From contig JAVLRN010000004.1 in assembly GCA_032821775.1 (NCBI GenBank), forward strand, positions 1,054,001 to 1,118,000: a stretch of 64,000 bases of DNA. The letters are read 5' to 3'. The notes beneath the pieces are model-generated. The model worked only from the letters and a program-made list of their open reading frames with translations. It was not told the DNA's origin and did not search any database. Source of the stretch: Sanguinoderma infundibulare (taxonomy: Eukaryota > Basidiomycota > Agaricomycetes > Polyporales > Polyporaceae). A program made the position numbers and the translations under genes. This document shows, piece after piece, positions 3,606 to 54,607 of this stretch. Positions within the stretch are counted from its first letter, which is position 1; each line of letters opens with the position of its first letter.

Positions 3606-5639
3606 CTACTTGCACAAAGATGACGGCTCCTCGCTGCCCCGACGCAGCACCCACTCCGACTGGTACTGGCCGAACCGCATCCCAGTTCGTTGTTCCTCTT
3701 CCTTCATGAGGAAGTCCATCACCGCGCGGTCAAGCTTCATGTGCAGGCCAAGGCGGGCAAACTCCTTGCGGATGTGCAGGACCTCGCTGTCCAAGAGCGA
3801 GAGCCCATCCTCGATGACGCCTGACAACGCGCCGGGAGCAACAGCGTGAGAAGATGATGGTCCTGCGGCAGGCACGATGACAGGCCCAGCAGCCACGACC
3901 GTTCCCCCGCTCGCAGGGGCCTCAGCAGGAGCAGGGTCCGACGAGATGGGCGGGAAGTCGAAATCCATGGGGTCGTCGGCGCGCAGGGTGATCTCGTCCT
4001 CTGTGGGGTTCTCCGTGGTGGCAGGAGCCTCGTAGACGCGGGGCGCGGCACTGGCTGACGACGCGGTGAGGGTGGCTACCAGGGCTTGCGACGAGGCAGG
4101 CTCATCGAAGTCGTCGCGCGCTGGCTCCTCCGGGTCCAGGAGGGTCTCTTCGTCGTCCGGGACTGAGTGCAGCAGGTAGTCGAGCACGTCGTCCGGCACC
4201 GCGGGTAGGTCCCCGACATTGTACCGGAAGGGAGTAGGGCCGGCGTGAGGAGGTTCGAACTTCACCCGTTTGAGGCAGGCTTCCAGCAGGGACATGTCAT
4301 CAACCATAAGGCGCCAGTCCGGGTGCGCCTCGATGTGCCGAAGGATGGCCTCGATGACCATGCGGTCCTTGCCCTTGAGCGTCTAGGGGATCGAGTGACC
4401 AACACCGTTGAAGATGGCGATGATGGCCAAGTTCCGACAGATCTCCCCAGTGTAACTATGCATAATACGGTGGCACGAGATGTGCTTGCACACGCATTCC
4501 ATGCAGCGGATCACCTCCGGGTGCAGCTCGCAGTCACCATCTGGTTGGCACCCATCACACCGCGTGGTACCCCACGACACGAATGATACCTTGCTGCCGC
4601 TGTGCTTGCGCATTTTCTTGGCATCGGGAGGTGTTTCCGGCTGCTCTGTGGCCTTGCGCTTAGCGCCGACGGGACGAGGCTGTGGACCCTTTTTGGCTGT
4701 GGACGATGCGGATGCGCGTGGCATGGCTGTCTTGGGCACAGTGTCTTCCTTGGATGAGTCAACTTCAATGGCCGTGTCGACAGTGCCAGCACGGGCCTTC
4801 CCCTTTTTGCTGCCCGTGTTCATCTTCTTCTGGCGGGGGGTGGGAGGAGGGAGCGCACTGGGTTGGGCAGTGGTGCATGACCACGTGGAAGGACAAGAAA
4901 CGACGGACGAGCTCCCAGTGGACATTCAGGCATTGGGCCTTGCAATGAGAGGCTTTGGCGTGATGGACGACGCGGCTGGCGCACTGGCGGCTGGGCGCGC
5001 GCTCGACACGGATGTCCCTTCCTCTGCAAAGGCAGCTTGCTGCTCCTCGTCTGGAGAGCAGAGGTCAGCGAGCGTCTTCAAGCAGCATCTGGGTGACTTA
5101 CAATCGCGCACGGCCTGGGTCTCGACCTCGTGGGTTTGTGTCAGCTCCGCGAAGACCGCATCGATGCGACCGTTGATCTCCTTCTTGGCAGCGCAGCCTT
5201 CTTCCATGGAAAGGTCCTCGTTTTTGACCTGCACTTGGACACCTTGATGCTCCGTGTGGAGGGCCGTGTGGTGGGTCTCAAGTTCCGCACATCGTGCGCG
5301 CACCACCTCGAGCATGCGGGGCCGCGTCCGTTGGCCGTACAATAGGATGATGCATTTGACCTCCTCCAGCGATGAGTGCATCTGCATGAGGTCGCCAAAC
5401 CGAGTAAAGTGTTTGTCTGGCAGCACCAGGTCGGGAAGTGCAGTGACCACCTTGAGAAACCGGTCGTGGAGCTCGCTCCGTGCGACGGTGTTGCGCGAGT
5501 CACTGAGCGAGATGAGCTCACCGATGAGGTGGACGAGCAGCACAACGTCGGTGGCCGGGTGGTCGAGCCAGGGCAAGACGTAGTGCATGCGCAGGTCTTG
5601 AAGCATGACTGTGTGGAGTTCAGTGGAGGAGCGACTCAT
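3606..5639 (-). pseudogene. Family-1 antisense gene b (Zn2Cys6-like), copy L
   Basis: This gene lies on the strand opposite to pol. From its start at 5639 it reads 237 codons to a TGA (4926-4928), then 180 codons in the same frame to a TAG (4383-4385), then 251 codons to 3606, again in the same frame. The first part has a helical, charged middle and a 51-base segment with GTAAGT...CTCCAG ends that could be an intron. The second part contains an acidic motif AIEVDSSKEDT, a lysine-rich stretch, and a six-cysteine cluster RCDGC...DC...RCMEC...SC with spacing CX2C-X5-C-X8-C-X2-C-X6-C, close to the fungal Zn2Cys6 pattern. The third part is acidic and proline/alanine-rich. Both in-frame stops are shared with copy R. 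The function is unknown; a DNA-binding or regulatory role is my inference. Confidence 0.7.
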
Positions 5640-6116
5640 GGCGGAGAGACAGGTGACGAGGGGTAGGCAAGGAAGTGGGTGCGCAAAAGAGGCAACAACT
5701 CCCGATGCTCAAGTCTATATGGCTGCCTTGGATGTCCTCTCTCTGCTTCTGCACGACTTCAGGAAGCATTCCTCAGGGTCCACACCACGCGAGCGGCACC
5801 GAGCGGTTGGCGTGTCCGTTACGTCACACATCAAGCTTCTACCCGTCTTCGGATTCCAAATCACAGCATGCGCGTTTCGACTACCTAATCTGTCTGGAAG
5901 CACCGCCTTTTTCCTCAATCATTTCTAATCATCCTCTATCGACCTCAAGTCGCTCTGCTGATCACCGGATACCGTGCATGGTGGTCGCCAGGCTTTGACC
6001 GCACCGTCGACAGCGTTCATCTTATGTCAAGTCATCAGCTTCTGCCCGTCCGCGTTGAGACGCGTTGACTCACCACGCTTTGCCAGACCGGTTGGAGAGC
6101 CCTTGTTCGGCTGCCG
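5640..6116. other. Intergenic spacer between antisense genes a and b
   Basis: I see no convincing coding exon here. The stretch is almost identical to 52094-52573 of copy R up to about 5955 and then drops to about 90%. It would hold the promoter of gene b, read leftwards. Confidence 0.45.
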
Positions 6117-8115: not shown

Positions 8116-8134
8116 CGAGCTGCCCCATGTCATC

Positions 8135-14997: not shown

Positions 14998-15987
14998 TGA
15001 TGTGCACCCGACGCTTCCGACCGCGGAGCCCGATGCAATTGCTCCATTCGGACGACTGAGGTGACTCGACCGACGTCTCGGCGGCTGCCAGCTCGTTGGC
15101 GTCTCTGGGCTGCGTGATTCGGACACACGTGGTGGCGGCCCGGCCTGCTAACCGGGTCTGGTACCGACGAGAGCCGAAGAAGCTGGGCACGTGCGAGGCC
15201 GCCGCACCAAGACTAGGCCGTCGAAGGGTACCAAAAGTATTCAGTCACGATCGGTGTCGCGACTCGGCCTGTCCCCGACTGTCCCTACGGTCGCACGGCG
15301 GCGGGCCACAAGTTAAGTCACACAGTTGCTCTCTCCGTCGCATCGCGCGACTGGTCGCAGATCGTCCCTCACAAAAGGTTACTTATGCAGCAGGTACGGG
15401 TCACGACAACCGGAAACCGACGAGTCACGCGACTGCGCAACAGCGATCACGACCCGCCAAGACAAGCCGACGGTGGTCGCCCAATCCGGTTGCGGTCGCG
15501 TGCCGATCGCTGGAGTTCCAGAGGGTTTCCGACGCTGGTTTTGTGATCGCTCGCCACCACGAGGCAGGCTAGGCTATGGGCGTCGCGTGTAGCTACCGGT
15601 TACCGATGTACTTAACCCCACTCGTTGCTGTTTGGGCAGACAATCTTGGACCCCCACCCTTTACCTCTCATTTCTCCGACGAGCAAGTGTGACTCGACAT
15701 CGCCCTCTGTCGGGTGTAGCTAGCGACTGTGATTGCGACTTGTGACAGCGACCACCGATCGACCGATTTGCGACAGCGACAGCGACTCGTCGTGCGACTT
15801 TCACCGCGACTTTCGACCTTCGGCACTACACACTCTTTCCCCTCTCTTCTCCTCGGCACCGGTTACGATCGCGACGAAAGGGAACCCGAGACCGTACTCG
15901 CCCTCCGCACCGGTGACGTCGCTCCGACCTCGCCTCCCTCAGCCCTCAGTCGTCCCGACTGTTCACAGGCCCTGGGATAGTGTATCA
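14998..15987 (+). repeat. 5' LTR of family 2
   Basis: The 990-bp LTR begins TGATGTGCACCC and ends GTGTATCA. The other LTR begins TGATGCGCACCC at 25621 and ends identically at 45917. Over the first about 270 bases I count around 14 differences, all C/T or G/A. The interval CTCTGTCGGGTGTAGC is uninterrupted here, whereas the 3' LTR has KDZ-2 inserted at this point. Confidence 0.9.
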
Positions 15988-15990
15988 TTT

Positions 15991-16005: not shown

Positions 16006-16499
16006 GGGGGAGTATAGATCTCGCCTCCGCCTTTGGTGCGACCCCGTAACTCTCATACAGTGCCACGCTGACACCTTCCACTCCTTCGCGTTCGTCGCTC
16101 GCACACAAGCTACTTGTCGCTCACGCGCATAGAATCACCGACCTTGGACTTCAGCTCGGCGACAAGGCCCGATACAGTCGCATCCTCTATTCCCTCTCTC
16201 GCGCCCTCTCTCGCGGTATCGACGCACTCGATAACAGACCCTCTTCTTCCGACTCTTCGTCCGCGACATCTTCCACGACGGTTAGGTCTAGAGCGAGACG
16301 CACGACGCCGAGCGCGATTCCTGGCGAATTTCCCCTGCCACCGTCGCCAGAACCCTGGGAAGACGTTCCACTCCCTCCTTCGCCCAATTACTGGACAGAC
16401 GTTCCCCTCCCGCCATCACCGGATATCGCTGCGACACCCTCGACAGCGTCACTACAAGTTTCCCCGTTCACACCACTCAGCGAACTCTCGTCGCTCACG

Positions 16500-17663
16500 A
16501 TGGATCCCCCCGATCTTCAAGCGCCGCAGCCAGCAGCGCACCTGCCACCCGCGATGCCCGCGCGCAACCACGCGACTGCGCCGGTATTCGACCCCGAGCG
16601 ACCAAGAACCTTGCGCGGCTTTTGGCAAGACCTCGACGCGCTCTTCGACAGGTGCCAGGTCGCCGCTGGCCGACCACGCAAACGATGGGCGATTCGTTAT
16701 CTCGAGGTCGAGGTCGCCGACTTGTGGGAGTCGCTCCCCTCGTACGAGGACGCATACACGTTCGAACAGTGGAAGACGAGCGTGGCCGAGCTATACCCTG
16801 GCATGGATGAGGCCCGCAAGTACTCGGTCGCTGACGTGGATAATCTGGTCGCAGGTCGCGTGGCGACACCGATCACGACGCTCGGTGAACTCTCCAGTTT
16901 TCATCGAGACTTCCTCGTTATGACCACCTATTTGATACAGCACCAGCGATTGTCGGTACTGGAACAGTCGCGACTCTTCGCGCGTGGCATTCGACTGCCC
17001 CTATGGGATCAGGTGGCTCAGCGACTTCAGATCAAGTTCGTCGACCACCACCCCGACGACCCCTACGCCCTCCGAGACGTTCTTGAGGCGGCACGATTCG
17101 TGCTTCACGGGACGTCGACGACAGCGACGGCGACACCAGTAGCACCAGCGGTTGCGACGGCGACGGCGACTCCGACAGCGACCGGTATCAAGCTGGAAGA
17201 TGTCGAGCCTTTCTTCCGAATGATGGCGCAGGCAATACGCGACAATGGTGCCAGGGCAGGACCAGCGGGACCACCACAGCGTGCCGATTACGGGCGACCG
17301 CCGCCGATGGGCTTCTGCCACTACTGTGGTGACATGGGCTGCCAGGTTCACACCTGCCGGTTCGTCGACGAGGACATCAACGCGGGTCGCATTGCACAGA
17401 ACAACGACGGGAAGGTTGTCTTGCCTAATGGGCAATTCGTACCGTGCAACCTACCGGGCCTGACCATGCGCGACTGTGCCTACGAGTGGCACCGGTGCAA
17501 CGCGACGGCGCCTGTAGGCCAGCTCCTCTTCCAGGTCGCACCGGCGGCCCCGACGCCTGATGCGACCAGCGACCGCATCGCCCAACTCGAGCATGAGATC
17601 TTCGCCCTCCGACAAGCAAGAGAGAAGTTCGATGGAGTTGAGATCACGACCGTTCCCCTGTGA
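16500..17663 (+). CDS. gag: Family-2 gag
   Basis: This encodes 387 residues from the first ATG to a TGA at 17661-17663. The N-terminal half is a helical retrotransposon gag domain (LRGFWQDLDALFDRC ... FEQWKTSVAELYPGM ... LSSFHRDFLV). A variant zinc knuckle CHYCGDMGCQVHTC follows, with the usual histidine replaced by cysteine, then GKVVLPNGQFVP. The reading frame is open upstream to about 16050 with no ATG. That extension is coding-like, with a duplicated PLPPSP unit (PWEDVPLPPSP / YWTDVPLPPSP), so the true start may have been lost. The terminating TGA sits in frame with the protease frame downstream and may be a decayed CGA. Confidence 0.8.
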   Translation: MDPPDLQAPQPAAHLPPAMPARNHATAPVFDPERPRTLRGFWQDLDALFDRCQVAAGRPRKRWAIRYLEVEVADLWESLPSYEDAYTFEQWKTSVAELYPGMDEARKYSVADVDNLVAGRVATPITTLGELSSFHRDFLVMTTYLIQHQRLSVLEQSRLFARGIRLPLWDQVAQRLQIKFVDHHPDDPYALRDVLEAARFVLHGTSTTATATPVAPAVATATATPTATGIKLEDVEPFFRMMAQAIRDNGARAGPAGPPQRADYGRPPPMGFCHYCGDMGCQVHTCRFVDEDINAGRIAQNNDGKVVLPNGQFVPCNLPGLTMRDCAYEWHRCNATAPVGQLLFQVAPAAPTPDATSDRIAQLEHEIFALRQAREKFDGVEITTVPL

Positions 17664-18743
17664 CCGCGACCGGCAGCAAGAGTCGAGGAGGTTGCCAACG
17701 GGGGCCCCACGGTAGCGACCGCCAGCGGTTCCGGAATGAGGGCGTCAGCCCCAGCCACGACCAGGGCAACCATGGCGGCCGCGCCAGCACGGCCGGTCAC
17801 CATCCTGTGACCACCGACCCCGGCCATGCGACAAGGAGCGGCGCCAGAGCACCCATTCGCGGGAGCCCGCGACGCGACTTATGCGCCGCCACGGACGACC
17901 AATGTCGGCGCAACACCGCGACCAGCGAGCGGTAAAGAGCGCGATCCAGCGTATCGCAACACAGTCCCGGTCTACCAGCCCAAGTTGATCGATGAGGTCT
18001 ACTCGCACGCAATGAAGACACCGGCGATCACGCTCTCTGTCGAGGAGCTCCTCTGCATCGCTCCCGACGTGCGCGCTAAGTTCCGCGAGGCAATCACCTC
18101 AAAGCGCGTACCGACCGAGCCACGCACAGTCACCTTCGCCGATGCGACCAGCGACGACGAACTTGCGACTGCGTGGTCCTGTCGCGGCGAACCTCTAGAG
18201 CCGGGTGCGCTGGTAGTCCCCGACCCGTACGACGTCTACCTCTCGCGACTCGGCCCTGGCCAAGAGCCGCAGCCGCTCGTGGTCGCAAAGGAGTCGTATG
18301 CGCTTCGCTCGATCGTCGGTTGTCTCGATGGTAAGATCGACGTCGAGGGAACCTTGGATGGCGGTGCGCAAATCGTCTCGATCTCCGAGGGCCTCTGCCA
18401 CCACGCGGTGCTCTCCTACGACCCGACGGTGCAGCTGTATATGCAGTCGGCAAATGGCGCGGTCGACCCGTCGCTAGGTATTGTTCGCAATGTGCCCTTC
18501 CTCGTCGGCGGTATTACGCTTTACCTACAGGTTCACGTCATTCGCAACGTGCCCTACGACTTGCTCCTCGGTCGCCCCTTCGACGTCCTGACCTGGAGCG
18601 TCATCAAGAACTTCAACAATGAAGACCAGATGATCACGCTCGAATGCCCGAACACGCGACAAGTCGTGACCATCCCGACACGACCGCGAGGACAGCCGAC
18701 CTTTCGGTTTCGCATCGACAGCAAGCGCTCCGAATCCATTTGA
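17664..18743 (+). pseudogene. Family-2 protease region
   Basis: This frame continues gag after its TGA, meets another TGA at 17808-17810, and is then open from 17826 to 18743 (305 codons). A retropepsin-like fold is suggested by GTLDGGAQIVSIS (the DGGA where most have DTGA/DSGA), ALSYDPTVQLYMQSANG and VPYDLLLGRPF. The stop at 18741 overlaps the start of pol, which is in the +1 frame. With CGA restored at both TGA positions gag and protease would be one ORF; this is inference from the frame alone. Confidence 0.7.
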
Positions 18744-21700
18744 GGACGGGGCACCCGATGGCGACTACGCCCTCGTCATTGATGACACACCAGGGGGCCC
18801 CATTATCTCTGCATATACCCGCATCGCTGACGACTCTATTCCTATCCCAGCTCTCTATTTATCGGCCTGCGATCAACTACACGATCGCGCGGGCGTCTAT
18901 TTCTCAACTAATCTCACAACTACTAGCGAAAAATGTCGTGCGACAAGCGCGACGACACCGGCGACACCGCTGACCACTGCGACCTCAGACTCTTTCTCTC
19001 TCCTCGCGTCTCCAGTTCCGCCTCTGTCTCCCTCTCTCGACATCGCTCTCTCTCTCTCCTTTATGCGCCCCTGTTCTTCCTCACCTTCTTTCATATTCTC
19101 GTTTCCGACCAAAAACGGTCGCGGCTACTTCGCGCCGCGATCGCAAGATACCCCCGCGAACGTTTTCCTCACCACACGCGACCCCGTTGCGAAAGGCCTC
19201 GTCACCAAGAAGAAGTACAAACCGGTCGCACGCAAGGTGCGACCTGTCCTAGGCTCGTGCCCCGAACAGTTTCGTGTCATGCGCAACATCACTGGCAACC
19301 CGCTCGTGAACATGCCGATCCTCCCTGATCATCCCCCTGACTTCGTCCTGACCGGTCGCTACACCCGCGAACACATGGAGGCCCTCGACAAGAAGCTGCG
19401 ACCCGACTTTCTCTGGCCCGAAGAGTGCAAGCTCCTCCACTACTTCATGTGCATCCACAACGAGGCGTTTGCATGGACTGACGAGGAGCGCGGCTGCTTC
19501 AAACCCGAGTTCTTCCCACCAGTCGATTTTCCGGTCGTACCGCACACGCCGTGGGTCCAGAAGAACATCCCAATCCTGCCGGGTCTCTACAAGGAGGTCT
19601 GCGACATCATCAAGCGCAAGATCGCCGCCGGCATGTACAAGCCGTCGAATTCGTCATATCGCGGTCGCTGGTTCTGCATCGCGAAAAAGGACAGGAAGCC
19701 GCGCATCGTCCACAGCCTCGAGCCACTCAACAAGGTCACGATCGCGCACTCGGGCGTAACTCCGACGCCCGACTATCTCGCCGAGCAGTTCAGCGGGCGA
19801 CCGTGCGGCTCGATGTACGACCTCTACGTTGGCTACGATGAGCGACTGATCGCAAAGTCGTCGCGCGACCTCACGACCTTCCAGACTCCGTTCGGCGCGT
19901 TGCGACACTGCACCCTCCCGATGGGGTGGTGTAACTCGGTACCTATCTTTCATGACGACGTCACTTACATCTTGCAGCCCGAGATCCCGGAGTGGACAGT
20001 ACCGTATATCGACGACGTCCCTGGCAAGGGACCGAAATCCGACTATCGCGACCGTGACGGCAAGTATGAGACCATCCCGCGCAACCCCGGCGTTTGTCGC
20101 TTCGTCAAGGAGCACTTCGACAACCAGAATCGCATCGTCACACACATGAGCCACGCCGGCGGCACCTACTCTGGGCCGAAGTCGATGCCCATCAACATTG
20201 AGAACATCGTCATCGGCCAGCGATGCACCCCGATCGGGCGACAACCCGAACAGTCGCGCGTCGCCCTCATCGTCAACTGGGGACCGTGCGGGAACATATC
20301 GGAGATCCGCGCGTTCATAGGCACGGTCGGCGTCCTGCGACTTTTCATTCGAAACTTCGCGAAGCGCGCCTGGCCACTTGTGAAGCTCATGCGGAAGGAC
20401 GTCCCCTTCGAGTTCGGCGACGAGCAACTCCGTGCGCAGGAGGACCTCAAGAAGGCAGTCATCGAGTCGCCAGCGCTCCGTGCGATCGACTACGAGTCGG
20501 GCGCGGCCGTCATCCTCGCCGTCGACACCTCCTACATCGCGGTCGGCTTCCACCTCTGCCAGTGCGACATCGACGACCCGCGCAAGCGGTACTACAGTCG
20601 CTTCGGATCAATAATGCTCAACGACAGGGAGGCGCGATTCTCGCAACCGAAGCTCGAGATCTACGGCCTCTATTACGCCCTGCGGAACCTCAAGGTCTAC
20701 TTGATCGGTGTTCGAAACCTCGTCGTCGAGGTCGACGCGCGATACATTCAGGGCATGCTCCAGAACCCTGACATTTCTCCGAGCGCTAGCATTAACCGTT
20801 GGATCGTCGTGATACTAACGTTCCACTTCACTCTAGTGCACGTCCCTGGAACGTCGCACGGACCCGACGGGTTGTCGCGGCAACCATCACAACCAGGCGA
20901 CGAGCCGCGTGACGACGACGACGGCTTCGAGGACTGGATCGACAAAGTCCACGGCTTCCTGCACCAGATGCTGCCCATGCGACCGCGACAACGCGCCTCT
21001 CCCCTGCAACTTTTCACGATCGCGTCTCCGACCGGGGACGGTCGGGATCTCAGTGAGGGGGAGGGACCGACCGACCAGGAACCGACAAGCGACACTGCGA
21101 CCACGTCGAGCGACATTCCGACTTCCGACCTCACTCGGCGAGCGAACGAGTGACTCGACAAGGTCAAGAGGTGGCTCCGCGACCTCCGACAACCGAGCGA
21201 CATCTCCGACAAGGTGTACGCGCAGTTTATCAAGTACTGCCAGCAGCACTTCGTCGACGGCGACCGACTGTGGCGAAAGGACTCGCACGGCGCACACAAG
21301 CTCATAGTCGGCCTCGGCCAGCGACTCGCGATCCTCCGACAGGCGCACGACGACATAGGTCATCGCGGCAATTATGCGATGTTGCAGTTCATCGCGGAGC
21401 AATTCTGGTGGCCGTCCCTTCGTGAGGACGTCACTTGGTATGTTCGCACTTGCCATCTCTGCCAGACGAGACAGACGCGACAGGTCCTCATTCCGCCGAC
21501 GGTCGCGACACCCGCACCACTGTTCGCGCGAGTCCACATCGACACCATGCACATGCCCACCTCCGGCGGCTTCAAGTACATCGTCCAGGCACGCTGCGCG
21601 ATCTCGCACTACCCGGAGTGGCGCATGCTCCGCGTCGAGACCGAGAAGACCCTCGGCGACTGGCTGTTCCAAGACGTCATCTGTCGCTGGGGTGGCCTCG

Positions 21701-25278: not shown

Positions 25279-25606
25279 GGGAGATGGTGAGACGAGGAGA
25301 GGAAGAAGAACCGAGGGGCGAGGTTGGAGGGGAGCACGGACGAAGACCCACCAGGCGACGGCTCTTATGTGACGCGCGATGGCGGCGCCAGCATCCCGGG
25401 CCTACCCCCATCGCACGCCTGGAGTCGCGGGATCACCAGTTCGGGGCGGTCTTTTGTCGCGCGACGGGTCGAAGGGTTACCGTTTTCATCGAGAAGCGCG
25501 TCTAGCGAGGATCGCCGTCTGTCAAGTGGCCGAGAAGAGAAGATCGCGCGGCGATGGCACCAGTACCACGCAGCTTCCTCGCGGCGACCGAGGACAGTCG
25601 AGATCC

Positions 25607-35241: not shown

Positions 35242-35261
35242 CGTTTTGCTGGCGAACTTGA
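34163..35261 (+). CDS. RING-finger protein 1, STUbL-like
   Basis: Five exons (34163-34462, 34533-34574, 34634-34696, 34747-34814, 34877-35261) give 285 residues with all junctions in frame. Order: VHVVVDDDGPP (residues about 31-41) and EIIEISSDDEP (about 71-81), both hydrophobic-plus-acidic stretches typical of SUMO-interacting motifs; a coiled coil EKRLKELEEENRKLKAAL across the first intron; then a complete C3HC4 RING (CGLC, VCGHTFCRGC, CPTC). RING proteins are usually E3 ubiquitin ligases. RING plus tandem SIMs is the layout of SUMO-targeted ubiquitin ligases, which is my inference here. It is the intact member of an inverted pair within KDZ-2. Confidence 0.8.
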
Positions 35262-38014: not shown

Positions 38015-39632
38015 TCGTACTCAGATCATTCAAGGTGAAGGGGAAGAACTGATGAAAAGGTCCCTCCAACGCTGGCTGGAGAGTGCGTGTGGGCTCGTTC
38101 GGAGGGGTTTCGCCCTGCACAGCTGCGATGGTTTCGACGATGTACTTGACGACAAAGTTCTCGGCCGGCTTGGCGCGGACTCACACCCGACACGTTGGGC
38201 ATGAGTATATCAGGTGCTCGGTGGTAGCGGTTGTGTGAAGAACCACGGCCTCGATGTGTCTTCTCCGCTGAGGCGAAAGGTCGGGACGAGCAAGCTGGAC
38301 TTGCCATTGATGGTGAAACAACTGCTGCTGCGAATCGTATGTCAGATGGCTGGCCACATGATGGGTGTGTGCAGTCTTGAACCACTGTTGGAGGCATCCG
38401 CGGCAGAAGGTGTGGCCACACACGAGCCTGTGGGCAAGGGTGCGGAGTTGATGAGTTCTAAATTAGGGTGGCAGCCAGGTCGGACGTACGTGTATGCGTT
38501 CCACATCTTCTCGTTACAAAGTCCACAGCTGACATGCTCGCCGATGGTGGACAATAGCTGTATGGTGGGTCAGAAAGGTGCGCGGTTGCAAGAGAACACT
38601 CATTTACCTTCTCGGTCGCCACGTCTGGGGCAGGGGTAGGGACCACCTCTGGTACGGGTTGTGGTTGCGCCTGGGGACATCATCTGTTAACGAACCACAG
38701 TACGAGCGTAAGTGAAATTCTGTACTCACAGGCTTGGCAGCCGCAAGAGCCGCCTTCAACTTCCGGTTCTCCTAAATGGGTGCCGAGAAAAGCCAATGTC
38801 AGCCACTTATCCTAAGTTGCATAATGCGGAGGGCGACGCACCTCCTCGAGCTCCTTGAGCCGCTTCTCAATGGCATTAACAGGGCGCGCAGATATCCTGG
38901 GGGCCGGCTCGTCGTCCGACGAGATCTCGATGATTTCTCGTGGAGGCGGAAGGGGCGCTTGGGCCCTCTGCTTTGAGCGCTGCCCGGGAGCCTTGCACGT
39001 GATGGCCTGCTTCTTGCGAGGAGGCCCGTCGTCGTCGACCACGACATGGCCAGTATTCACATTGGACGGCCCTGCGACAACCTGGGGAACCGGGGCCGGT
39101 TGACGAGTGCCTTGCCGGAGCCCAGAACGAGTGGCGGGCATAGCGTTTCAAATAGGCAGAGCGCTGTAATGACGTTAAGAGACGATGTAAGGGTGCTCGA
39201 CGGCGATGAGTGGGGAAGAGAAGGCGACAGGGAGGGCCAACGACTGGGAGTGGTGGACGTTCGAATGCTGCGGTAGAGACTCGGGGCCGGCAGGGCCGAT
39301 GGAGGGGAACCGATCGACGCAAAGTCAAATCGGAATCACAAGCGTCCAGTGGTCTGCGGTGACAAACTGGAGCTGCGATGAAACAAGTGGGGGATGGGAT
39401 CAGAAATCTTGATGGACGCCTACGAGCAAGACAGTTAGTATCAGTCACAATCGAATAGCTGCGCACGTACGCGGTCGAGGCTATTCGTCTTGCGCGCGAA
39501 TATCTTTGCTTGAGGGGACGAAGGGGAGCACCTGAAAACGATTCAAGGTCAGCGCGGTCACTATTGCGAGCCTAGGCGGGGGCGTTCACGTCATGTATGC
39601 CCCGCCTAGCCGGGAAAACAGACACGTACCTG
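38015..39632 (-). repeat. Inverted-repeat arm R (RING gene 2 unit)
   Basis: This is the inverted counterpart of 33743-35241. Outside the arms the sequences differ completely on both sides. Confidence 0.85.
38181..39141 (-). pseudogene. RING-finger protein 2, truncated copy
   Basis: The exon layout is the same as in RING gene 1, beginning MPATRSGLRQGTRQPAP at 39141, with VVVDDDGPP, EIIEISSDDEP, the coiled coil and RING cysteines CGLC, VCGHTFCRGC and CPTC. The inter-cysteine loop is longer and diverged (CLQQWFKTAHTHHVASH...). Directly after CPTCRV the frame meets TGA (38181-38183), where copy 1 continues LIHAKPAENFVV. The downstream frame is still recognisable to about 38030. All RING ligands precede the stop, so a shortened protein with a complete RING is possible. 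I call it a pseudogene because the shared C-terminal part is lost. Confidence 0.65.
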
Positions 39633-39775
39633 GGGACCACGACTCAGATTTCGAAATGATGACCCACGGGGACGAAGACGCCGGAGGCGAACGTGAGGCT
39701 GGAGTCGATGGTGATGACGGGCGGGACGACAAGTAGAGCGACGGCGGTACTCAAAACGATGAAGTCCACACCTAA

Positions 39776-39900
39776 CTCACTCCCGCCACAATTGCCACAA
39801 TCGTGGCGGGCGTGAATCAGGTGGGCCGGGCCGCTGTGCCCCGACGCCACAATTATGGCAGTTGTGGCGGGCGTGAGTCAGGCGTGGACTTCATCGTTTC
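39776..39900. repeat. Palindromic GCCCGCCACAA repeats
   Basis: Two adjacent units (CCCGCCACAATTGCCACAATCGTGGCGGGCG at 39782 and GACGCCACAATTATGGCAGTTGTGGCGGGCG at 39843) can each fold into a hairpin. They belong to the repeat family seen at 33529-33601 and 37516-37556. Confidence 0.6.
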
Positions 39901-39959
39901 CAGTCACCTCCCGGCTGGGTCTACTTTGCACGCCTCGCTCGTCCCTCTGGTCGACGTTC

Positions 39960-40490
39960 AATTCCCTCCACGACACCCTCATCAATGAGAACCGCTCGAA
40001 CGACGACAACTACAACTACATCGCCATCGGCCAGAAGCATTCCACCGTCGCTCGACTCGCCAAGACACTCGAGGACCACGATACTCCAAAATCGTCACTG
40101 CCACCGCCTCTGAGGCTGCCCCGCTCAAGTACCTCGCGCCCTTCTCTGGCTGCGCCATGGGCGAATGGTTCCGTGACAAGGGTAAGCACGGAACGTAGCT
40201 TGTTGATGAACGACCCTGGCTGTTTGCTGCTCACGACATTCCTTAGCCCTCATCATCTACGACGACTTGTGGAAGCAGGCTGTCACTCCGCGTCAGATGT
40301 CCATGCTCCTTTGTCGTGCCCCCGGTCGTGAGGCTTACCCCGGCGACGTCTTCTACCTCCACTGTTGTCTTAGGGTGGTGATGTGTCCGCCTACATACCG
40401 ACGAACATCATGTCTGTGACCGTCGTGGTGTCCGTCCCGCCATCAATATCGGTCTTTCTGTCTCGCAGTTCAGTTGCGAACTCGACGCGT
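39960..40490 (+). pseudogene. ATP1: F1 ATP synthase alpha gene fragment
   Basis: The plus strand encodes [20 protein letters not shown], then after one frame shift [21 protein letters not shown] and [10 protein letters not shown] spliceable intron follows (GTAAGC...CCTTAG, about 40181-40246), then [13 protein letters not shown]...[36 protein letters not shown] and finally RGVRPAINIGLSVSR. These are diagnostic blocks of the mitochondrial ATP synthase alpha subunit. The Walker A region, the start and the C-terminus are absent and there are internal deletions. It is therefore a captured, decaying fragment retaining a host intron. Confidence 0.9.
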
Positions 40491-40784
40491 CCGCGGACGC
40501 CGATGTTTACCTGATCACCTCATTCGTTTTTCTAGGTCTTCCTCGTCTCCACGCAGAACTTCGCGCTCTGCCTGCCTGGGCCTCGATTGTCGCTGCAGAC
40601 CTCGAGGTCCGGTTTTCTCCACTCCAACACTTTGTCCCGGCATGCACCGCCTCGGTCCAAGCGCGACCCCGCGGCCCCGGCCACGCTCTTTTGTGCTTTT
40701 GTGGCTCCGCCTCTGTATAAAGTCATGACCCAATCCATGCCCTGCGATCACTTTTTTGCACTCTCCCCTCCATTCTACATCCAA

Positions 40785-42186
40785 ATGCCTAAGCCTACCG
40801 AGGCTGAGAAGACACGAATTCGCGGCCTGACGCTGCCCTACCTGCTGTCTAACTTGGTGCAGATGCATGCTCGTCGCGACTGCCCCCAGGGCCGCCTTCA
40901 TCGTCCTCAAGCAAGCTATGGGCAGAAGGACTTCGCCAACATCGGGCTGGTTTTTGAATTCGTACGTCCTATCGTCATTTCCATTTTGCGAACAGCTCTA
41001 TTAATGTTGTGACAAGTGTCCCGACAAACCACCTTGCCAGTTTCACGGGAAGCCCCTTGCGCTCCAAATGACGGCAGACAAACGGGCAGACCTCCTTTCG
41101 GAGCTTGAGATCCTCGAGCCACTGCCCTACCATGATGTGGCGAATGTGGCCCTCTGTCGTTCGATCCGAGAGCGGATCCTGCTCACTGGCGACGTCGGCG
41201 CGGGGTCCGTCCGCGAACCTCCTCCGACACCTTCTCGATGGGACCGTGTGGGTCTCGCGCTGAACCGCAGTGATTCGCGTCCATCCTCTACACCATCCTC
41301 TCCCCTTGCCCGTCTGCCCAGCCCTCGCACTCCCACGCCGAAGACCGGCGCCACGAAGACGCCAACCACCGCTGGCAGCACAGGCTCCCTGAAAGGACCG
41401 GGCCGCCCGCGGAGGGCTGAGGTCGAAGTGAAGGTCTACGCCTTCAATCATGTAAGTCCAATTCTCTCCCGGTCGCCATTCCCGTGCTGACACCTTCGAC
41501 AGAATGAGGAACTTCCTATTTCAGCGAACGCTGTTGGGCACACGACCAAAAACAAGCAAGTCCGATTCAGGTTCTGGCAGCCTGCCGTCGCCGAGGCCTT
41601 CGGCTTCGACCTATCCGCCCGGAACCGTCCCAGCTATGAGATGTACCTCGCCGCCCTCGACGAATGGACTGATTGCATTGTCGATCAGGTCCTCGCATGT
41701 GGCCAGCCGGTCTTGGTTCGCCGCACGGGAGTTCGTAGCATGCCTGCTCTCAACATGCTGAAACCACTGCTCCAGCCTCCCTTCGACCCCAAAGGCGTCC
41801 GACCTCTTAACAGCCTCCTCGATCATGTACATGGCTTCCCAGTCGGCCGTGCGCGGGAGGACCCGTCTGACACACTTGAGGAGATTTTCGGTGGCCCGCC
41901 ACCCTCCGCAGCGCACGCGGGCCCCTCGACGCCTCGCGCGAGCAAGGCCGATGCGCCCGTTGCGGCCACCCCTCAGAAGTCGCTCAAGCAGAAGGCTGAC
42001 GAACGCTTCGACTTTGGATCTCGGAAAGCCGGCAAAGTGTCTTCGAACGCAGACGTTGCGCGCGGTCCGGTGGCCCGGAGTGACGTCATCTACATCTCGG
42101 ATTCTGAGCATGAAGTCCAGCGTTCTCGGAGTAAGGGCAAGGCCAGGGCGATCCCCGATGACGACGTTATCGACTTGACTGTGTAG
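40785..42186 (+). CDS. KDZ-2 gene B, unknown protein with C-terminal SIMs
   Basis: Three exons (40785-40961, 41017-41451, 41503-42186) total 1296 bases, 431 residues, all in frame. The N-terminal part (PYLLSNLVQMHARRDCPQG...GQKDFANIGLVFEF, then CPDKPPCQFHGKPL) has paired cysteines. A Ser/Pro/Thr-rich linker and the basic KGPGRPRRAEVEVKVYAF follow, then a globular part (RFWQPAVAEAFGFDLSARN ... LDEWTDCIVDQVLACGQ). The tail has two SUMO-interaction-like motifs, DVIYISDSEHE and DDDVIDLTV, the latter ending the protein. GRPRR resembles an AT-hook. I do not recognise the family. Nuclear action through SUMOylated partners is plausible. Confidence 0.7.
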
Positions 42187-42666
42187 TTGTCTAGTGAACC
42201 TGTAATGCATATAGCTTTGACCCTCATTTGTCCTCCATCGTAACGTTTCTGTTCTTGCTTGTCCGACCCGACATCGACAATGAGCGCTCACGACAACGAG
42301 GAACTCATCGACTACGAGGACGAGCATGACGTGGTCATCAAATGGCGCCCTTCATGCATCCGCTAACGGTTCCGTTGCTCCTGCACCTCTGGCCGAACAA
42401 AAAGAACTAGCCGCTCGAACGCGCTTGAACCGGCCACATCCACAGTTGCTAGGGTGATCAAATAGTGTTTACGCAGTCTCAGTCTGTATTGTGCGTTAGC
42501 AGTGATTGTACTTCCTTTTTTGTGCGCCACGACCTCCCGCCACTTCCGCCGCTCTGGCCTTAATTAGTTTATGCCGCAGCACCCATGGTCCCGTTAGCGT
42601 GCACTTCTGTCCACCGTCGTTCACCACCAACCCCCATCTCTCACTCTCCTCTTCCTCACGTTCTCA
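42187..42666. other. Spacer between genes B and C
   Basis: No gene is supported. A short opening (MSAHDNEELIDYEDEHDVVIK at about 42280) looks like the acidic start of another protein but is cut off after about 20 codons, so it may be a relic first exon. The last 100 bases are C/T-rich, fitting a promoter for gene C. Confidence 0.4.
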
Positions 42667-45231
42667 ATGCCCCGCCGTGCAATGCTCCCCAGAGTTCCCG
42701 ATTCCAGCGACTCCGAGTCTCAGCACGACGAGGTTCACGTCCCTGCCACCACACCTGAGCCGGACCCTTCCCCCACTCCCGCCACAGGCAACCACTCCAA
42801 CTCCGAGGAAGAAGCCGCCCCCGTCGACTCCGAGGATGAAGCCCCCGACGCCGACTCGACAGACTCGGAGACAGAGAAGAAGCCGGTTCCTAAGAAGCGA
42901 GGCCAGAAACCCAAGCCGAAGCTTCCCACTGAACACCCAGCCACCGACAAGCCTGAGAAGAAGAAGCGCTTCAACTGGGGGAACTATCCCGAGCAGCTCG
43001 CCTTTCTCGAGAAGACGTTTGACGAAATGATCCCGGTCGATGAAAAAGAATGAAGCAAGATGAGGGATGCGGCGAAGGACAAGTTTATCAAGACGTGGGG
43101 ACCCCTCGAGGGTTACACGCAGAAGGACTTCAAAGACAAGGCACGTTGAATACCACACTTCACCTGTTTATGTCGCTGACATTACCTCTAGGTCCTCTTC
43201 AATTGGTTCAAAAACCACAAACAACAGTGGAAGGGGAAGCGGGGCCTCGACGCGGTCAGCGACAAGCCTACCGCCACCGTCCCATCTACTGAACCACGCT
43301 CTGTGGCGCAAGCCTCTGCCACTGAACTCGCACTCGCCCCCCTCCTGCAGAGCCTTCGGAAATGCATGCGCGGTCCTTCCAGCTGGTGGTATCTCGAGAA
43401 TAAGGAGCTCGTCAACCAGCGTAGGGACAAACTTGGTGGCGGGATCGGCGCGCACAAGACCGCCCTCGCTGAACTTTACGACGCACTCCCCGAAAGCGAG
43501 AAGGCGATCTGGGAGGAGAAAGCGGCGAATGAAAAACAGAAGAATCTTGACGATGAGAGCCAATGCTACAGGTATGTCGGTCCCACTCCTCACCTAGAGC
43601 ATGAACAGCTAACATGTACCTACAGGAACCAGGTTGACTTCCCGCTCATGTTCGCCAACCTCCTCCAGACTTTCTTCGGTTTTGGCCCAGACCAAGTCGG
43701 AGCTGCACACGCCCACTTGCGCATTGCGATGCGAACTGAGGACGGAAAAATCGTGTACAAATCGTACGTTCTCACATTCCTCCGCAGTACTTTCATTTGT
43801 TGATTACGCGCAGGTACACGATCGGTATGAAAGATGTCGAAGATCCCCCGTCGTTCGATTCGTATCAAGGTGGGCCGAAGCAGGATGAGATAGGCCGGTG
43901 GAGTGGCTTTAACGAGGACTATCTTCGTAAGGGCATCCCGCACCTTGTCTCGCATGTTCGCTGACGACACCTCCTAGCGCCAAATCCAGTCCGCCGGGAT
44001 GAGCGATTGTTCTATGACGAAAGCGGCCTTCCTAATCTGCTGCCGTATAATGAGGAGTGGACTGTCGGTCAGGCAAGTTCAACGCTTGATGTGTGGTTTG
44101 AGGCGATGTGGCGTAAGTGATCGTGGTTCACGCTATTTCGTCGGGCTAACATTGGGTCCTACAGTGTATTGTGGTGACCACGGCATTGACCTTCCGAACG
44201 GCCTCGACTGGAACAAATTTGCGACCACTGTCGCCCCATATATTCCATCAAGGTGGACCCGCGACGTCAGTGGCAAACCCTCGGAGCGTCCTTTCCACCG
44301 CGTCCTCACCCTCTACCACGACCTGTTCGAAGCCCAAGGCACAGACGATGCCTTTCAATGGGTCTCGATGACGACTGGCCTGTCCTCGAATATTCCTCGC
44401 TTTAGCCGACAACCTCCGACCACCCCGACCACCATCATGCGGACAGTGTACACAACACCCACGAAGACCCCGTGCCCCACACAAGGCCGTTCCCCTGTGC
44501 CCCCGTCACCTTCTAAGCAACGCTTTTCTCGCCCTCCTGTGCTGCCAACAATCCCTGACGAGATCAAGCAAGACGTCATCGAAGCGACGATCGAGAACCC
44601 TTTCCTCGATCATGATCGCCAAGCCGATCATGGGGGTGGCGGTGGTGGTGCGGGGAACGATCCCACCGGCAGTGAAGGCGACGGAGGTATGGCCGCAGAC
44701 GGGGAGGGCGGGAACGCACATACAATGACGGATGCGCCAGCTGCGGAGCCTCAAGACATCAATGTGGAAGCAGGCGAGCCTCGGGACGTCGAGGCGGACG
44801 CGAGCGAGCCTAGGGACGTCGAGGCGGTCCGTGTGCGTGACGAAGGCAACACGAACAGTGGCGCGGACCCGGATCCCCATGTCGAGAGCAATAATGCTGA
44901 CCCCGCGGTGGTTCCTACTCATCAGGAAGACCACCGCGAGGCAGACGGAGATCTGAGCGTGGTCGCGGCAGAGGAAGGCCTCAGCGGGGTGTCGGCTATG
45001 GGCAAGCGCAAGCAACGCCGCTCGGGCGCGCCTGCAGCGAAACGCCGCAAGAAGGCGTCGACGGCCGAGGCAGAACCTGAAAGCATTTCGGCGGTGTCTC
45101 AACGCCCCGCGCGCCCCAAGCCTGCTCCTCTCCGAAGCCCTCGGAAGACGCGAGCACGTGTTGCACGTGATGCTGACGAGGCTCTTAAGAATCAGCGGCA
45201 GACGCGGGCGAGGGGAGGTAGGAAAGCATAG
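42667..45231 (+). pseudogene. KDZ-2 gene C, unknown multi-exon protein
   Basis: Six exons: 42667-43140, 43192-43571, 43626-43763, 43814-43925, 43977-44112 and 44165-45231. The first intron has a GC donor (AAG|GCACGT). The N-terminus is acidic (SDSESQHDE), then KKRGQKPKPK. A conserved-looking domain follows (RFNWGNYPEQLAFLEKTFD ... KDKFIKTWGPLEGYTQ ... LFNWFKNHKQQWKGKRG). The middle is globular (LLQTFFGFGPDQVGAAHAHLR) and the tail is basic with KRKQRRSGAPAAKRRKK and RARGGRKA. An in-frame TGA at 43051-43053 interrupts the first exon, probably a former tryptophan codon. Otherwise it is open for about 770 residues. The function is unknown; the nuclear-localisation-like tail suggests the nucleus. 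Confidence 0.65.
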
Positions 45232-45636
45232 GATAATCTGTGTAGCTGTGGTCGTGTAGGATAATCTCTGTCATTTGTAGGATAATCTTGCCATACTTTT
45301 TAGCTGATCCGCACATAGAAATCTCATAATGGTCATGTTTCTTAGGATACATAGTGGATAATCCGGCAGATAATCCCACAGATAATCCGGCAGATAATCC
45401 CACGGATAATCCGGCAGATAATCCCACGGATAATCCGGCAGATAATCCCACGGATAATCCGGCAGATAATCCCACGGATAATCCGGCAGATAATACTCGT
45501 CAAATAGTGTAGTGTCACACGTTATAATGGGTCTCAAAATGAATGTATTATTGTGTCACTAATCCGATTGAGGAGGATTATCCGAGATATGCATGAGTTA
45601 ATGTATTTAGATTATCCAAATGGAATACATCTTCTG
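45232..45636. repeat. KDZ-2 right subterminal array and TIR
   Basis: About six tandem units of 24 bp (GGATAATCCGGCAGATAATC plus CCAC) run from 45354 to about 45494. They are preceded by three GGATAATCT words (45230-45290) and followed by the right TIR (about 45596-45636). The motif matches the left end. Confidence 0.85.
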
Positions 45637-45917
45637 CTGTCGGGTGTAGCTAGCGACTGCGATTGCGACTTGCGACAGCGACCACCGATCGACCGATTTG
45701 CGACAGCGACAGTGACTCATCGCGCGACTTTCACCGCGACTTTCGACCTTCGGCACTACACACTCTTTCCCCTCTCTTCTCCTCGGCACCGGTTACGATC
45801 GCGACCAAAGGGAACCCGAGACCGTACTCGCCCTCCGCACCGGCGACGTTGCTCTGACCTCGCCTCCCTCAGCCCTCGGTCGTCCCGACTGTTCACAGGC
45901 CCTGGGATAGTGTATCA
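45637..45917 (+). repeat. 3' LTR of family 2, downstream portion
   Basis: The stretch starts with the second copy of the CTGTCGG duplication and continues GTGTAGCTAGCGACTGC, as in the 5' LTR from 15708. It ends GTGTATCA at 45917, next to the hAT exon. Confidence 0.9.
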
Positions 45918-51511: not shown

Positions 51512-52093
51512 ATGAGCACGCTCAACAACATGGAACAGCACTGCAATGAGGTCTGCGCGATCCTGCTGCCAAAGGCTGAAGATACAGTGGAGCGCCAGAT
51601 AGCCGAGCTGCAAATCATCATGAATGGGGAAGCGTTCGTCGAGGTGGATGTGAAGAAGTGTCTGGACCGCCTCATGCTAGGGCTTGTACGTCTTCGCATC
51701 GTTAACCATCGGCCTCATGCTCACCGCACGGTGCAGGGAGCACTGCTGTGCATCTGTTCGGATTCCACCATCATCCTGTCAGCCACCAACCAGGTCAGGC
51801 TGATGCTCGAGACGTGGAATGTGCCTGAAATCCTGCAGCACTTCGACACAGAATTCGACTGAGTACAGCGCGAAGCGCTCACAAGCGAGCTCCGGTTGCA
51901 GTGGGCAGCGGCGAAGACGTATCAGGATATGGCGTTCTCGTTCCGGTACATTCTGGAGCACGCAGGAATGAACCTCTGTGTCACGGACCAAGCACGCATC
52001 AAGGAGTTCATCCATTGGTCCATGCGCAACGAGGCAGACACGCGCCGTGAGTATGCCAGTTTCAACAGAGTGCCGTTACGAGAAGTCGAATGA
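51512..52093 (+). pseudogene. Family-1 antisense gene a, copy R
   Basis: Exon 1 starts MSTLNNMEQHCNEVCAILLP at 51512. A 51-base GTACGT...GTGCAG segment (51686-51736) is a likely intron. Exon 2 encodes GALLCICSDSTIILSATNQ ... EFIHWSMRNEADTRREY and ends at 52093. A TGA at 51860-51862 breaks exon 2, where copy L has TGG. The protein would be about 175 residues, helical, with several cysteines. Family unknown. Confidence 0.6.
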
Positions 52094-52573
52094 GGCCGGC
52101 AGCCGAACAAGGGCTCTCCAACCGGTCCGGCGAAGCATGGTGAGTCAACGCGTCCCAACGCGGATAGGTGGAAGCTGACGACTTGACATAAGATGAACAC
52201 CATCAACAGCGCGGTCGAAGCCTGGCAACTGCCGCGCACAGTATCCGGTGATCAGCGGAGCGACTTGAGGTCGATAGAGGATGATTAGAAATGATTGAGG
52301 AAAAAGGCGGTGCTTCCAGACAGATTAGGTAGTCGAAACGCGCATGCTGTGATTTGGAATCCGAAGACGGGTAGAAGCTTGATGTGTGACGTAACGGACA
52401 TGCCAACCGCTCGGTGCCGCTCGCGTGGTGTGGACCCTGAGGAATGCTTCCTGAAGTCGTGCAGAAGCAGAGAGAGGACATCCAAGGCAGCCATATAGAC
52501 TTAAGCATCGGGAGTTGTTGCCTCTTTTGCGCACCCACTTCCTTGCCTACCCCTCGTCACCTGTCTCTCCGTC
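52094..52573. other. Spacer between antisense genes a and b, copy R
   Basis: No gene is seen. It corresponds to 5640-6116 and contains the gene b promoter. The part from about 52260 rightwards is nearly identical to copy L. Confidence 0.45.
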
Positions 52574-54607
52574 ATGAGTCGCTCCTCCACTGAACTCCAC
52601 ACAGTCATGCTTCAAGACCTGCGCATGCACTACGTCTTGCCCTGGCTCGACCACCCGGCCACCGACGTTGTGCTGCTCGTCCACCTCATCGGTGAGCTCA
52701 TCTCGCTCAGTGACTCGCGCAACACCGTCGCACGGAGCGAGCTCCACGACCGGTTTCTCAAGGTGGTCACTGCACTTCCCGACCTGGTGCTGCCAGACAA
52801 ACACTTTACTCGGTTTGGCGACCTCATGCAGATGCACTCATCGCTGGAGGAGGTCAAATGCATCATCCTATTGTACGGCCAACGGACGCGGCCCCGCATG
52901 CTCGAGGTGGTGCGCGCACGATGTGCGGAACTTGAGACCCACCACACGGCCCTCCACACGGAGCATCAAGGTGTCCAAGTGCAGGTCAAAAACGAGGACC
53001 TTTCCATGGAAGAAGGCTGCGCTGCCAAGAAGGAGATCAACGGTCGCATCGATGCGGTCTTCGCGGAGCTGACACAAACCCACGAGGTCGAGACCCAGGC
53101 CGTGCGCGATTGTAAGTCACCCAGATGCTGCTTGAAGACGCTCGCTGACCTCTGCTCTCCAGACGAGGAGCAGCAAGCTGCCTTTGCAGAGGAAGGGACA
53201 TCCGTGTCGAGCGCGCGCCCAGCCGCCAGTGCGCCAGCCGCGTCGTCCATCACGCCAAAGCCTCTCATTGCAAGGCCCAATGCCTGAATGTCCACTGGGA
53301 GCTCGTCCGTCGTTTCTTGTCCTTCCACGTGGTCATGCACCACTGCCCAACCCAGTGCGCTCCCTCCTCCCACCCCCCGCCAGAAGAAGATGAACACGGG
53401 CAGCAAAAAGGGGAAGGCCCGTGCTGGCACTGTCGACACGGCCATTGAAGTTGACTCATCCGAGGAAGACACTGTGCCCAAGACAGCCATGCCGCGTGCA
53501 TCCGCATCGTCCACAGCCAAAAAGGGTCCACAGCCTCGTCCCGTCGGCGCTAAGCGCAAGGCCACAGAGCAGCCGGAAACACCTCCCGATGCCAAGAAAA
53601 TGCGCAAGCACAGCGGCAGCAAGGTATCATTCGTGTCGTGGGGTACCACACGGTGTGATGGGTGCCAACCAGATGGTGACTGCGAGCTGCACCCAGAGGT
53701 GATCCGCTGCGTGGAATGCGTGTGCAAGCACATCTCGTGCCACCGTATTATGCATAATTACACTGGGGAGATCTGTCAGAACTTGGCCGTCATCGCCATC
53801 TTCAACGGTGTTGGTCACTCGATCCCCTAGACGCTCAAGGGCAAGGACTGCGTGGTCATCGAGGCCATCCTTCGGCACGTCGAGGCGCACCTGGACTGGC
53901 GCCTTACGGTTGATGACATGTCCCTGCTGGAAGCCTGCCTCAAACGGGCGAAGTTCGAACCTCCTCACGCCGGCCCTACTCCCTTCTGGTATGACGTCGG
54001 GGATCTGCCCGCAGTGCCAGATGACGTGCTCGACTACCTGCTGCACTCAGTCCCGGACGACGAAGAGACCCTCCTGGACCCAGAGGAGCCAGTGCACGAC
54101 GACTTTGATGAGCCCACCTCGTCGCAAACCCTGGCAGTCACCCTCGCCATGTCATCGTCCAGCGCCACACCCCGCTTCGACGAGGCTCCTACCACCACAG
54201 AGAACCCCATGGAGGACAAGATCACCCTGCGCACCGACGACCCCATGGACTTCGACTTCCCGCCCATCTTGTCGGACCCTGCTCCTGCTGAGGCCCCTGC
54301 GAGCGGGGGAACAGTTGCAGCTGCTGGGCCTGTCATCGTGCCTGCTGCAGGACCATCATCTTCTCACGCTGTTGCTCCCAGCGCGTTGTCAGGCGTCATC
54401 GAAGATGGGCTCTCGCTCTTGGACGGCAAGGTCCTGCACATCCGCAAGGAGTTCACCTGCCTTGGTCTGCATATGAAGCTTGACCATGCAGTGATGGACT
54501 TCCTCATGAAGGAAGAGGAAGAGCAAACTGGGCTGCAGTTCGGCCAGTACCAGTCAGAGTGGGTGCCGCGTCGGGGCAGCGAGGAGCCATCATCTTTGTG
54601 CAAGTAG
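52574..54607 (+). pseudogene. Family-1 antisense gene b (Zn2Cys6-like), copy R
   Basis: The same three in-frame blocks as in copy L: 52574-53287 (237 codons, identical protein to copy L), 53288-53830 (180 codons, with AIEVDSSEEDT and the RCDGC...RCVEC...SC cluster) and 53852-54607 (251 codons, more diverged). The separating TGA (53285-53287) and TAG (53828-53830) are shared with copy L, so they predate the divergence of the copies or were spread by conversion. The TGA may be a former CGA. The TAG lies in CCCCTAG, which could also be an acceptor site, but no donor I tried restores the frame. Confidence 0.7.

Follow-up and report, generated by a model that had tools for sequence, protein, structure and literature searches.

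How an additional gene can persist inside a retrotransposon, and whether it is debris or a working part of the element, is the question raised by a stretch of 64,000 nucleotides of the Sanguinoderma infundibulare genome (C4:1054001-1118000 in a genome of 48.9 Mb; the window, with positions counted from its first letter). Two families of long terminal repeat (LTR) retrotransposons of the Gypsy type, family 1 and family 2, are found in it, and in both of them a gene module encoding a cluster of six cysteines lies between pol and the 3' LTR, on the strand opposite to pol, which upholds the layout and strand proposed for both families by an earlier sequence-only reading of the same DNA. As a conserved, intron-bearing gene that has been swapped between elements together with the promoter half of the LTR, this six-cysteine gene has the look of a functioning regulator and not of debris.

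The antisense gene in families 1 and 2

The family 2 antisense gene begins with an ATG at 25278, internal to the border of the 3' LTR and thus inside the element, and is composed of four exons on the reverse strand (25111-25278, 24260-25051, 24057-24204, and 23056-24007), separated, as the sequence-only reading had proposed, by three GT-AG introns, here of 59, 55, and 49 nt, each of which has a CTGAC/CTGAT-like branch site recognized by eye. Its product, with domains also called by eye, has a helical-looking N-terminus, a Pro/Ala-rich portion, basic stretches, and the motif PIELGSSEDE (all in exon 2), the six-cysteine cluster (exon 3, 148 nt), then a linker, and finally a coiled-coil-like stretch and an acidic tail (both in exon 4, which is frameshifted in the window copy). 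Upstream of the ATG lies the TATA-like sequence CACATAAGAGCC (25360-25371, reverse strand), and a CATAA core is present approximately 90 nt before the ATG in all seven of the aligned copies, which represent three cassettes, denoted f2, f2b, and f2r.

When spliced in silico, the family 2 frame is open from the ATG to the stop, over approximately 690 residues, in eight of the 11 close copies, the three broken ones being the window copy, through its frameshift in exon 4, L029, through an insertion within exon 3, and L025, through a single stop. The splice sites around exon 3 were surveyed in 13 family-2-type loci (one f2, six f2b, and six f2r), and in 13/13 the exon has 148 nt, intron 2 has a GTAAGT donor and an AG acceptor, and a further GTAAGT donor follows the exon. 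The same sites are found in the 11 close f2 copies, and the acceptor of intron 3 matches in the seven family-2-type loci for which it is given (7/7).

In family 1, which is represented in the window by two inverted and damaged copies (L and R; 90% identical over 4.4 kb, with the similarity of L to R ending at 6505), the cysteine gene occupies 3606-5639 on the reverse strand in copy L (ATG at 5639) and 52574-54607 on the forward strand in copy R (ATG at 52574), with two internal stops in each. Nor is this gene free of introns, as a 51-nt intron is present in both copies (5101-5051 in L and 53112-53162 in R), and one intron, with a GTAAGT or GTGAGT donor, is found in 12/12 family 1 copies; in four distant copies its length was measured as 52-53 nt. 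The TATA-like sequence CATATAGA (52490-52502, forward strand, in R; 5723-5711 in L) precedes the ATG by approximately 70-85 nt in all 12 copies.

The earlier description of 51512-54607 as the module of copy R was right in recognizing an antisense gene there, but the stretch is not a single module, as it comprises the cysteine gene and, between this gene and the 3' LTR side, i.e., upstream of it, a second antisense open reading frame (ORF), ORF-a (51512-52090, forward strand, approximately 190 aa, one internal stop). The C-terminal part of ORF-a is 62-67% identical in three of the four distant loci of a related type, f1r, and the fourth locus has no match.

All three window copies of the cysteine gene are thus damaged; other sites in the genome have copies whose frames are open. 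The L and R genes share two stops, a TGA and a TAG (4926-4928 and 4383-4385 in L; 53285-53287 and 53828-53830 in R), and, since the TGA is missing from the ten other aligned family 1 copies, L and R may be descended from one copy that was already broken.

The host elements

Family 2 is present in the window as a single element, made up of a 5' LTR, a gag-like ORF, pol, the antisense gene, and a split 3' LTR. The 5' LTR (14998-15987, forward strand as are the features that follow, approximately 990 bp) forms a direct repeat with 25621-26336 and 45627-45917, and a 990-bp unit also aligns in another copy. It is followed by the gag-like ORF (16050-17660, a stop-to-stop frame without a Pfam match) and by pol (18670-22539), which has two frames (18670-21150 and 21154-22539) with one stop codon between them and Pfam matches to RT_RNaseH (1.9e-9) and Integrase_H2C2 (2.2e-18), in that order. 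The first part of the 3' LTR (25621-26336) includes U3 and more, and is cut by a nested insertion, while the last part (45630-45917) matches 15697-15987 and the outer LTR ends of other copies. On the criteria tested, i.e., an LTR pair, a gag, and an RNase H placed before the integrase, the host element is of the Ty3/Gypsy type, with the reverse transcriptase and the core integrase lacking profile confirmation, as the Pfam profiles RVT_1 and rve had no match at E 1 in the window frames. The nested insertion (26337-45629, approximately 19 kb) sits inside the 3' LTR, and the CTGTCGG found at its left junction and at the point where the LTR resumes may be a target-site duplication. Of family 1, there remain a pol remnant in copy L (225-3110, forward strand), with an RNase H frame at 225-1298 and an integrase frame at 1875-3110, and an integrase remnant in copy R (55102-56037, reverse strand).

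Distribution in the genome

Six-frame searches of the genome were run with both modules and both integrases and then joined by place, which, after the merging of same-place fragments and the removal of the weakest rows, resulted in 73 typed integrase places (from 93 rows) and 46 module rows; short family-1-like fragments, whose match was in most cases confined to the initial 52 residues of the query, were left out of the count. Where the integrase shares 74% or more identity with that of family 2, the module lies 3' of pol, antisense, and within 6 kb at 30/30 places. The same holds for 11 of the 12 sizeable family-1-type places (integrase at least 68% identical to that of family 1), and at the twelfth (C4:2874193) the module is 14 kb further on, on the same side and antisense. 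Taken together, 41/42 related pol places have the module within 6 kb, on a constant side and strand, and no module match in the sense orientation relative to pol was found at the 73 integrase places.

The searches gave no module within 6 kb at the remaining 31 of the 73 places, which comprise a degenerate one (C9:929202, 65%), a family-1-like fragment (C1:830122), five places with an integrase 42-43% identical to that of family 2 (0/5 with a module), and 24 places of a clade at 27-35% (0/24). Related elements lacking the module, which the sequence-only reading would have counted against itself, therefore do occur, but further out and not among the close relatives. Because these more distant relatives have no module match within 6 kb, the antisense six-cysteine gene is, judging by its distribution, a trait of one clade. 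The insertion of an independent transposon on two occasions, another outcome that the earlier reading had named as contrary to it, is contradicted by the constant side and strand, and so is that of a host gene.

Among the module rows, 41/46 adjoin pol in this fixed arrangement, and the other five consist of the one with its pol 14 kb away, three weak orphan matches, and one beside what we take to be a split element, with its two halves 15 kb apart and the module on the usual side. The orphan places include C12 and C6; the weak matches at C12:407732-409631, which have no integrase of family 1 or 2 close by, could represent a relic or else a domesticated copy.

The cysteine pattern itself is present at 36 of the 37 distinct module places examined, the exception being a broken copy on C13 (L036/L052) in which the cluster is not intact. 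A module shared with an intermediate clade (C8:286345 and C3:432878) was considered, but the antisense ORFs 3' of the integrase there (100-162 aa in L055, reverse complement, 619-2633) have no cysteine pattern, and no clear codon-position signal was seen in them between the two copies, which are 89% identical. One 6-kb stretch of the distant clade (L056) has no antisense ORF of more than 144 aa and no cysteine pattern.

Purifying selection

The ratio of nonsynonymous to synonymous divergence (dN/dS), which the sequence-only reading had suggested computing between element families, indicates purifying selection on the module, with values of 0-0.41 in 19 of 27 comparisons. Between f2 and f2b, the values are 0.23 (exon 2), 0.13 (exon 3), and 0.28 (exon 4), with the changes mostly in the third position (41/34/91 by codon position in exon 2), and in family 1 they are 0.22-0.36 in six of seven pairs, the seventh being saturated. 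The integrase has values of 0.07-0.20 (four comparisons) against 0-0.71 in the module, which is thus conserved, but less so than the integrase. An absence of selection on the cysteine cluster, which had been set down as a refutation, is contradicted by these ratios and by the six cysteines that are invariant in 16/16 aligned clusters. In a comparison of L034 with L026, CpG transitions make up 198 of the 303 differences, a heavy CpG-to-TpG decay of old copies, as expected of methylation-linked mutation.

The six-cysteine cluster

In the six frames of the window, the spacing 2 / 5-7 / 8 / 2 / 6 occurs three times, precisely at the three modules, in agreement with the claim that the two families have a common cysteine spacing. 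A chance origin of the pattern was rejected, given that 60 simulations with a first-order Markov model gave no occurrence. The six cysteines are the sole fully invariant columns of the 16 aligned clusters, which belong to five types, and these types differ between the second and third cysteines, where there are five residues in f1, six in f1r, and seven in f2, f2b, and f2r. The Zn2Cys6 rule is CX2CX6CX5-12CX2CX6-8C, so that the f1r spacing (2/6/8/2/6) fits it and the other types deviate from it at this one interval. To speak of a six-cysteine cluster with Zn2Cys6-like spacing is safe, and the cluster is presumably metal-binding.

The likeness to the Zn2Cys6 factors (PF00172) lies in the six cysteines and in their near-canonical spacing, but in the module the cluster is found in the middle of the protein, and the basic stretch after the second cysteine, which is a feature of Zn2Cys6 proteins, is mostly missing. 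When the clusters of families 1 and 2 were compared with each other, a probability of 65.8% was obtained, which none of 60 shuffles with fixed cysteines reached (the best being 51.9). Homology of the whole proteins was rejected, as only the cluster aligned and the probability was 0.8%, with a family 1 profile made up of four distant f1r copies. No significant match was obtained among solved structures (best E 2.9 and 1.1), and another weak Pfam match, to Antifungal_prot, came from one of the 16 members (E 0.0046).

Exchange of the module together with U3

The gene has been exchanged together with U3 between pol lineages, as the divergence on the two sides of a breakpoint reveals. Between f2 (C8) and f2b (C4), the integrases have a synonymous divergence (dS) of 0.10 and a protein identity of 98%, and the modules have a dS of 0.67 in exons 2 and 4; between f2 (C8) and f2r (C5), the corresponding dS values are 0.14 for the integrase and 0.91 and 1.09 for the module. 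Integrases that are 94-98% identical as proteins are thus paired with modules that are 38-77% identical by exon. At the DNA level, identity falls from 95% to 63-66% between adjacent 150-bp bins, approximately 220 bp 3' of the integrase stop, and beyond this breakpoint the module identity by bin is 67-84% for f2-f2b and 42-59% for f2-f2r.

A second break lies inside the LTR. In the 3' LTR, the outer 300 bp or so are 99-100% identical between f2 and f2b, and the remainder, on the U3 side, is 76-93% identical; in the C5 element of type f2r, closeness to f2 (89-96%) is limited to the outermost 100-150 bp, with 45-85% in the rest. This arrangement, with breaks just 3' of the integrase and within the LTR, is what template switching during reverse transcription would be expected to give. 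The f2b elements on C10 and C2 have LTR pairs that are 99.4-99.5% identical, and hence these chimeras have been mobilized through reverse transcription; in the C5 f2r element, the LTR pair is 96% identical.

Possible function of the gene

Since the gene is inherited alongside U3 rather than alongside the integrase, the most likely reading is that its product is a nuclear regulator directed at the LTR or chromatin of the element itself. In this fungus, a clade of Ty3/Gypsy-type elements carries a real extra gene, antisense to pol and located in the interval that separates pol from the 3' LTR. Transcription probably starts from a TATA-type promoter of the gene's own, located between the 3' LTR and the ATG, and the transcript would be spliced in vivo, with one intron in family 1 and three in family 2. 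Its product would combine a helical-looking N-terminus, basic stretches similar to nuclear signals, an acidic motif similar to those of SUMO interaction, and the six-cysteine cluster, with a coiled-coil-like stretch and an acidic tail added in family 2, and would act in the nucleus on the LTR or the chromatin of its own element, either in the control of transcription or against silencing, in a manner similar to the antisense factors of certain retroviruses. The structural side of this account is strong, given where and on which strand the gene lies, its open spliced frames and conserved splice sites, the purifying selection, and the exchange with U3; the function is what we infer, and the account as a whole appears to us about as likely to be right as wrong.

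A number of points weigh against the regulator reading. The module and U3 are adjacent, so that joint transfer follows from position and is no proof of an interaction; position alone could be the source of the link. A third f2b element, on C4, has an f2-type 5' LTR (99% to f2) that is 88% identical to its own 3' LTR, which a later local rearrangement would explain, but which does not fit the simple account. In eight of the 27 comparisons, dN/dS is 0.47-0.71; these include all three exons of f2-f2r (0.56-0.71, with sites close to saturation) and five comparisons of exons between close pairs (0.47-0.67), in the latter case perhaps through decay after insertion. The SUMO-interaction-like, nuclear-signal, and coiled-coil motifs were called by eye, and the pattern of the acidic stretch matched three of the five family-1-type copies tried.

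The identity of the cluster adds to these points. No Pfam match above the cut-off was found in the five module frames scanned, only one of the 16 cluster members matched Zn_clus (PF00172), at E 0.56 and below the curated cut-off, and no module place is among the 70 PF00172 matches of the genome, 57 of which reach the cut-off (three of these with neighbours in the frame), a level reached in none of 14 control genomes and taken as a sign that the genome is fungal. The profile comparison with Zn_clus that the sequence-only reading had called for, made with hhalign between the family 2 cluster and the host Zn_clus (six usable of 14 loci), gave 7.3%, inside the range of 20 shuffles with fixed cysteines (0.4-29.8%). 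The proposed closeness to the Zn2Cys6 rule stands as regards spacing, but membership of the Zn2Cys6 family is not supported. A single-sequence model of exon 3, with two strands and no helices, had a mean predicted local distance difference test (pLDDT) score of 60, a low confidence at which it was not used.

Other roles have to be weighed against that of an LTR regulator. The protein might serve integration or particle traffic, such as the nuclear import of the pre-integration complex or the tethering to target sites, rather than transcription, as is suggested by its nuclear-type features (by eye) and its retention beside pol in 41/42 related places, and as is discussed for the proteins of plant antisense ORFs in a passage of PMC7264820; inheritance with U3 and not with the integrase, with integrases 94-98% identical beside modules of 38-77%, would be hard to reconcile with a close partner of the integrase, and we consider this role rather doubtful. 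It is also possible, but unlikely, that the antisense RNA is what matters, forming double-stranded RNA with the genomic RNA and limiting copy number through small RNAs. Any transcript of the gene would be complementary to the 3' portion of the genomic RNA, and a similar role has been proposed for plant elements (in part of PMC7264820), but codon selection, open spliced frames, and conserved splice sites show that a protein is under selection, and both roles may hold together.

The presence of introns in a gene of a retroelement suggests an origin from inserted genomic DNA, from which a captured host gene or independent transposon, passively carried, might be proposed; given that 41/46 module rows adjoin pol in one constant arrangement of side and strand, that frames have stayed open, and that dN/dS is mostly far below 1, passive carriage is very unlikely. 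Fast protein evolution in place of recombination, to which the high f2-f2r ratios might point, is extremely improbable as the source of the module divergence, as the synonymous and non-coding sites diverge too, in steps 3' of the integrase and inside the LTR, which contradicts fast evolution alone.

An extension of the regulator reading, which we put forward as speculative, is that the antisense six-cysteine gene is matched to U3 as regulator to operator, the two making up one cassette in which the protein would recognize its own U3, and regulatory identity would be changed by the acquisition of a whole cassette through template switching. If so, one gag-pol lineage could escape silencing by the host or repression by sister elements, and the swapping of cassettes would resemble the exchange of immunity regions in phages.

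Relation to known antisense genes

Retroviral regulators of the HBZ type are bZIP-type proteins. The module has a cysteine cluster in their place and belongs to an LTR retrotransposon rather than a virus, and no homology is claimed with the antisense-encoded nuclear regulators of the deltaretroviruses, i.e., HBZ of human T-lymphotropic virus 1 (HTLV-1) and its HTLV-2 counterpart, as mentioned in part of PMC11963269. The likeness to these regulators, drawn by the earlier reading, would fit as an analogy.

The layout itself, antisense between pol and the 3' LTR, is already known from plants and from Boty. In Botrytis cinerea, Boty (BcGypsy1) carries the antisense gene brtn, according to the title of Zhao et al. 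(2011), cited in PMC8365987, and a passage of PMC7264820 places brtn between pol and the 3' LTR. By description alone, this is likewise a fungal LTR element with an extra antisense gene, and the passages of PMC7264820 and PMC8365987 concerned do not state a six-cysteine cluster, introns, or an exchange linked to U3.

On the plant side, the aORF-3R of the Retand, Grande, and RIRE2 elements is, in the relevant portions of PMC7264820 and PMC11963269, antisense between pol and the 3' LTR and present in most copies, its proteins being suspected to be nuclear or DNA-binding; the same portions give a TRP28 domain (PF04195) for most Retand ORFs and transcription from its own promoter for gene23 of Grande. 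Two defining traits of the aORF-3R, i.e., a place 3' of pol on the opposite strand inside the element, and presence in most copies, are found in the fungal module (41/42 places); as to a third, a conservation comparable with that of other element genes, the module is conserved less than the integrase. The differences are the other kingdom, the TRP28 domain, for which the five module frames scanned have no match at E 1, and the introns of the fungal module, the word "intron" being absent from PMC11963269.

In the open-licence literature, no report was found of such a cysteine-cluster antisense gene in basidiomycete elements, or of its exchange with U3; neither is described in the passages of PMC3248453, PMC3411680, and PMC2864245 that bear on the subject, and a legend in the last mentions an additional ORF of unknown function. 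What appears to be new here is the combination of near-identical pol (dS 0.10) with divergent modules (dS 0.67), breaks 3' of the integrase and in the LTR, and chimeras that have transposed. Antisense genes have been reported repeatedly in LTR retrotransposons, and the fungal system offers one that bears introns and a cysteine cluster and is under selection, with several full-length frames and with chimeras of natural origin in which pol is uncoupled from the cassette. These chimeras and intact frames make the question of function testable in transformable fungi.

Other features of the window

Three further features were observed in the window. A different Gypsy-type element, with a CCHC-type gag and a broken pol, adjoins family 1 copy R (56683-62705, forward strand). 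Large inverted repeats at 32972-39925, with arms of up to 852 nt that are 96% complementary, suggest a foldback element or two inverted copies of an element, and a tandem array of a 12-bp unit (GATAATCCGGCA and variants) is found at 45332-45518.

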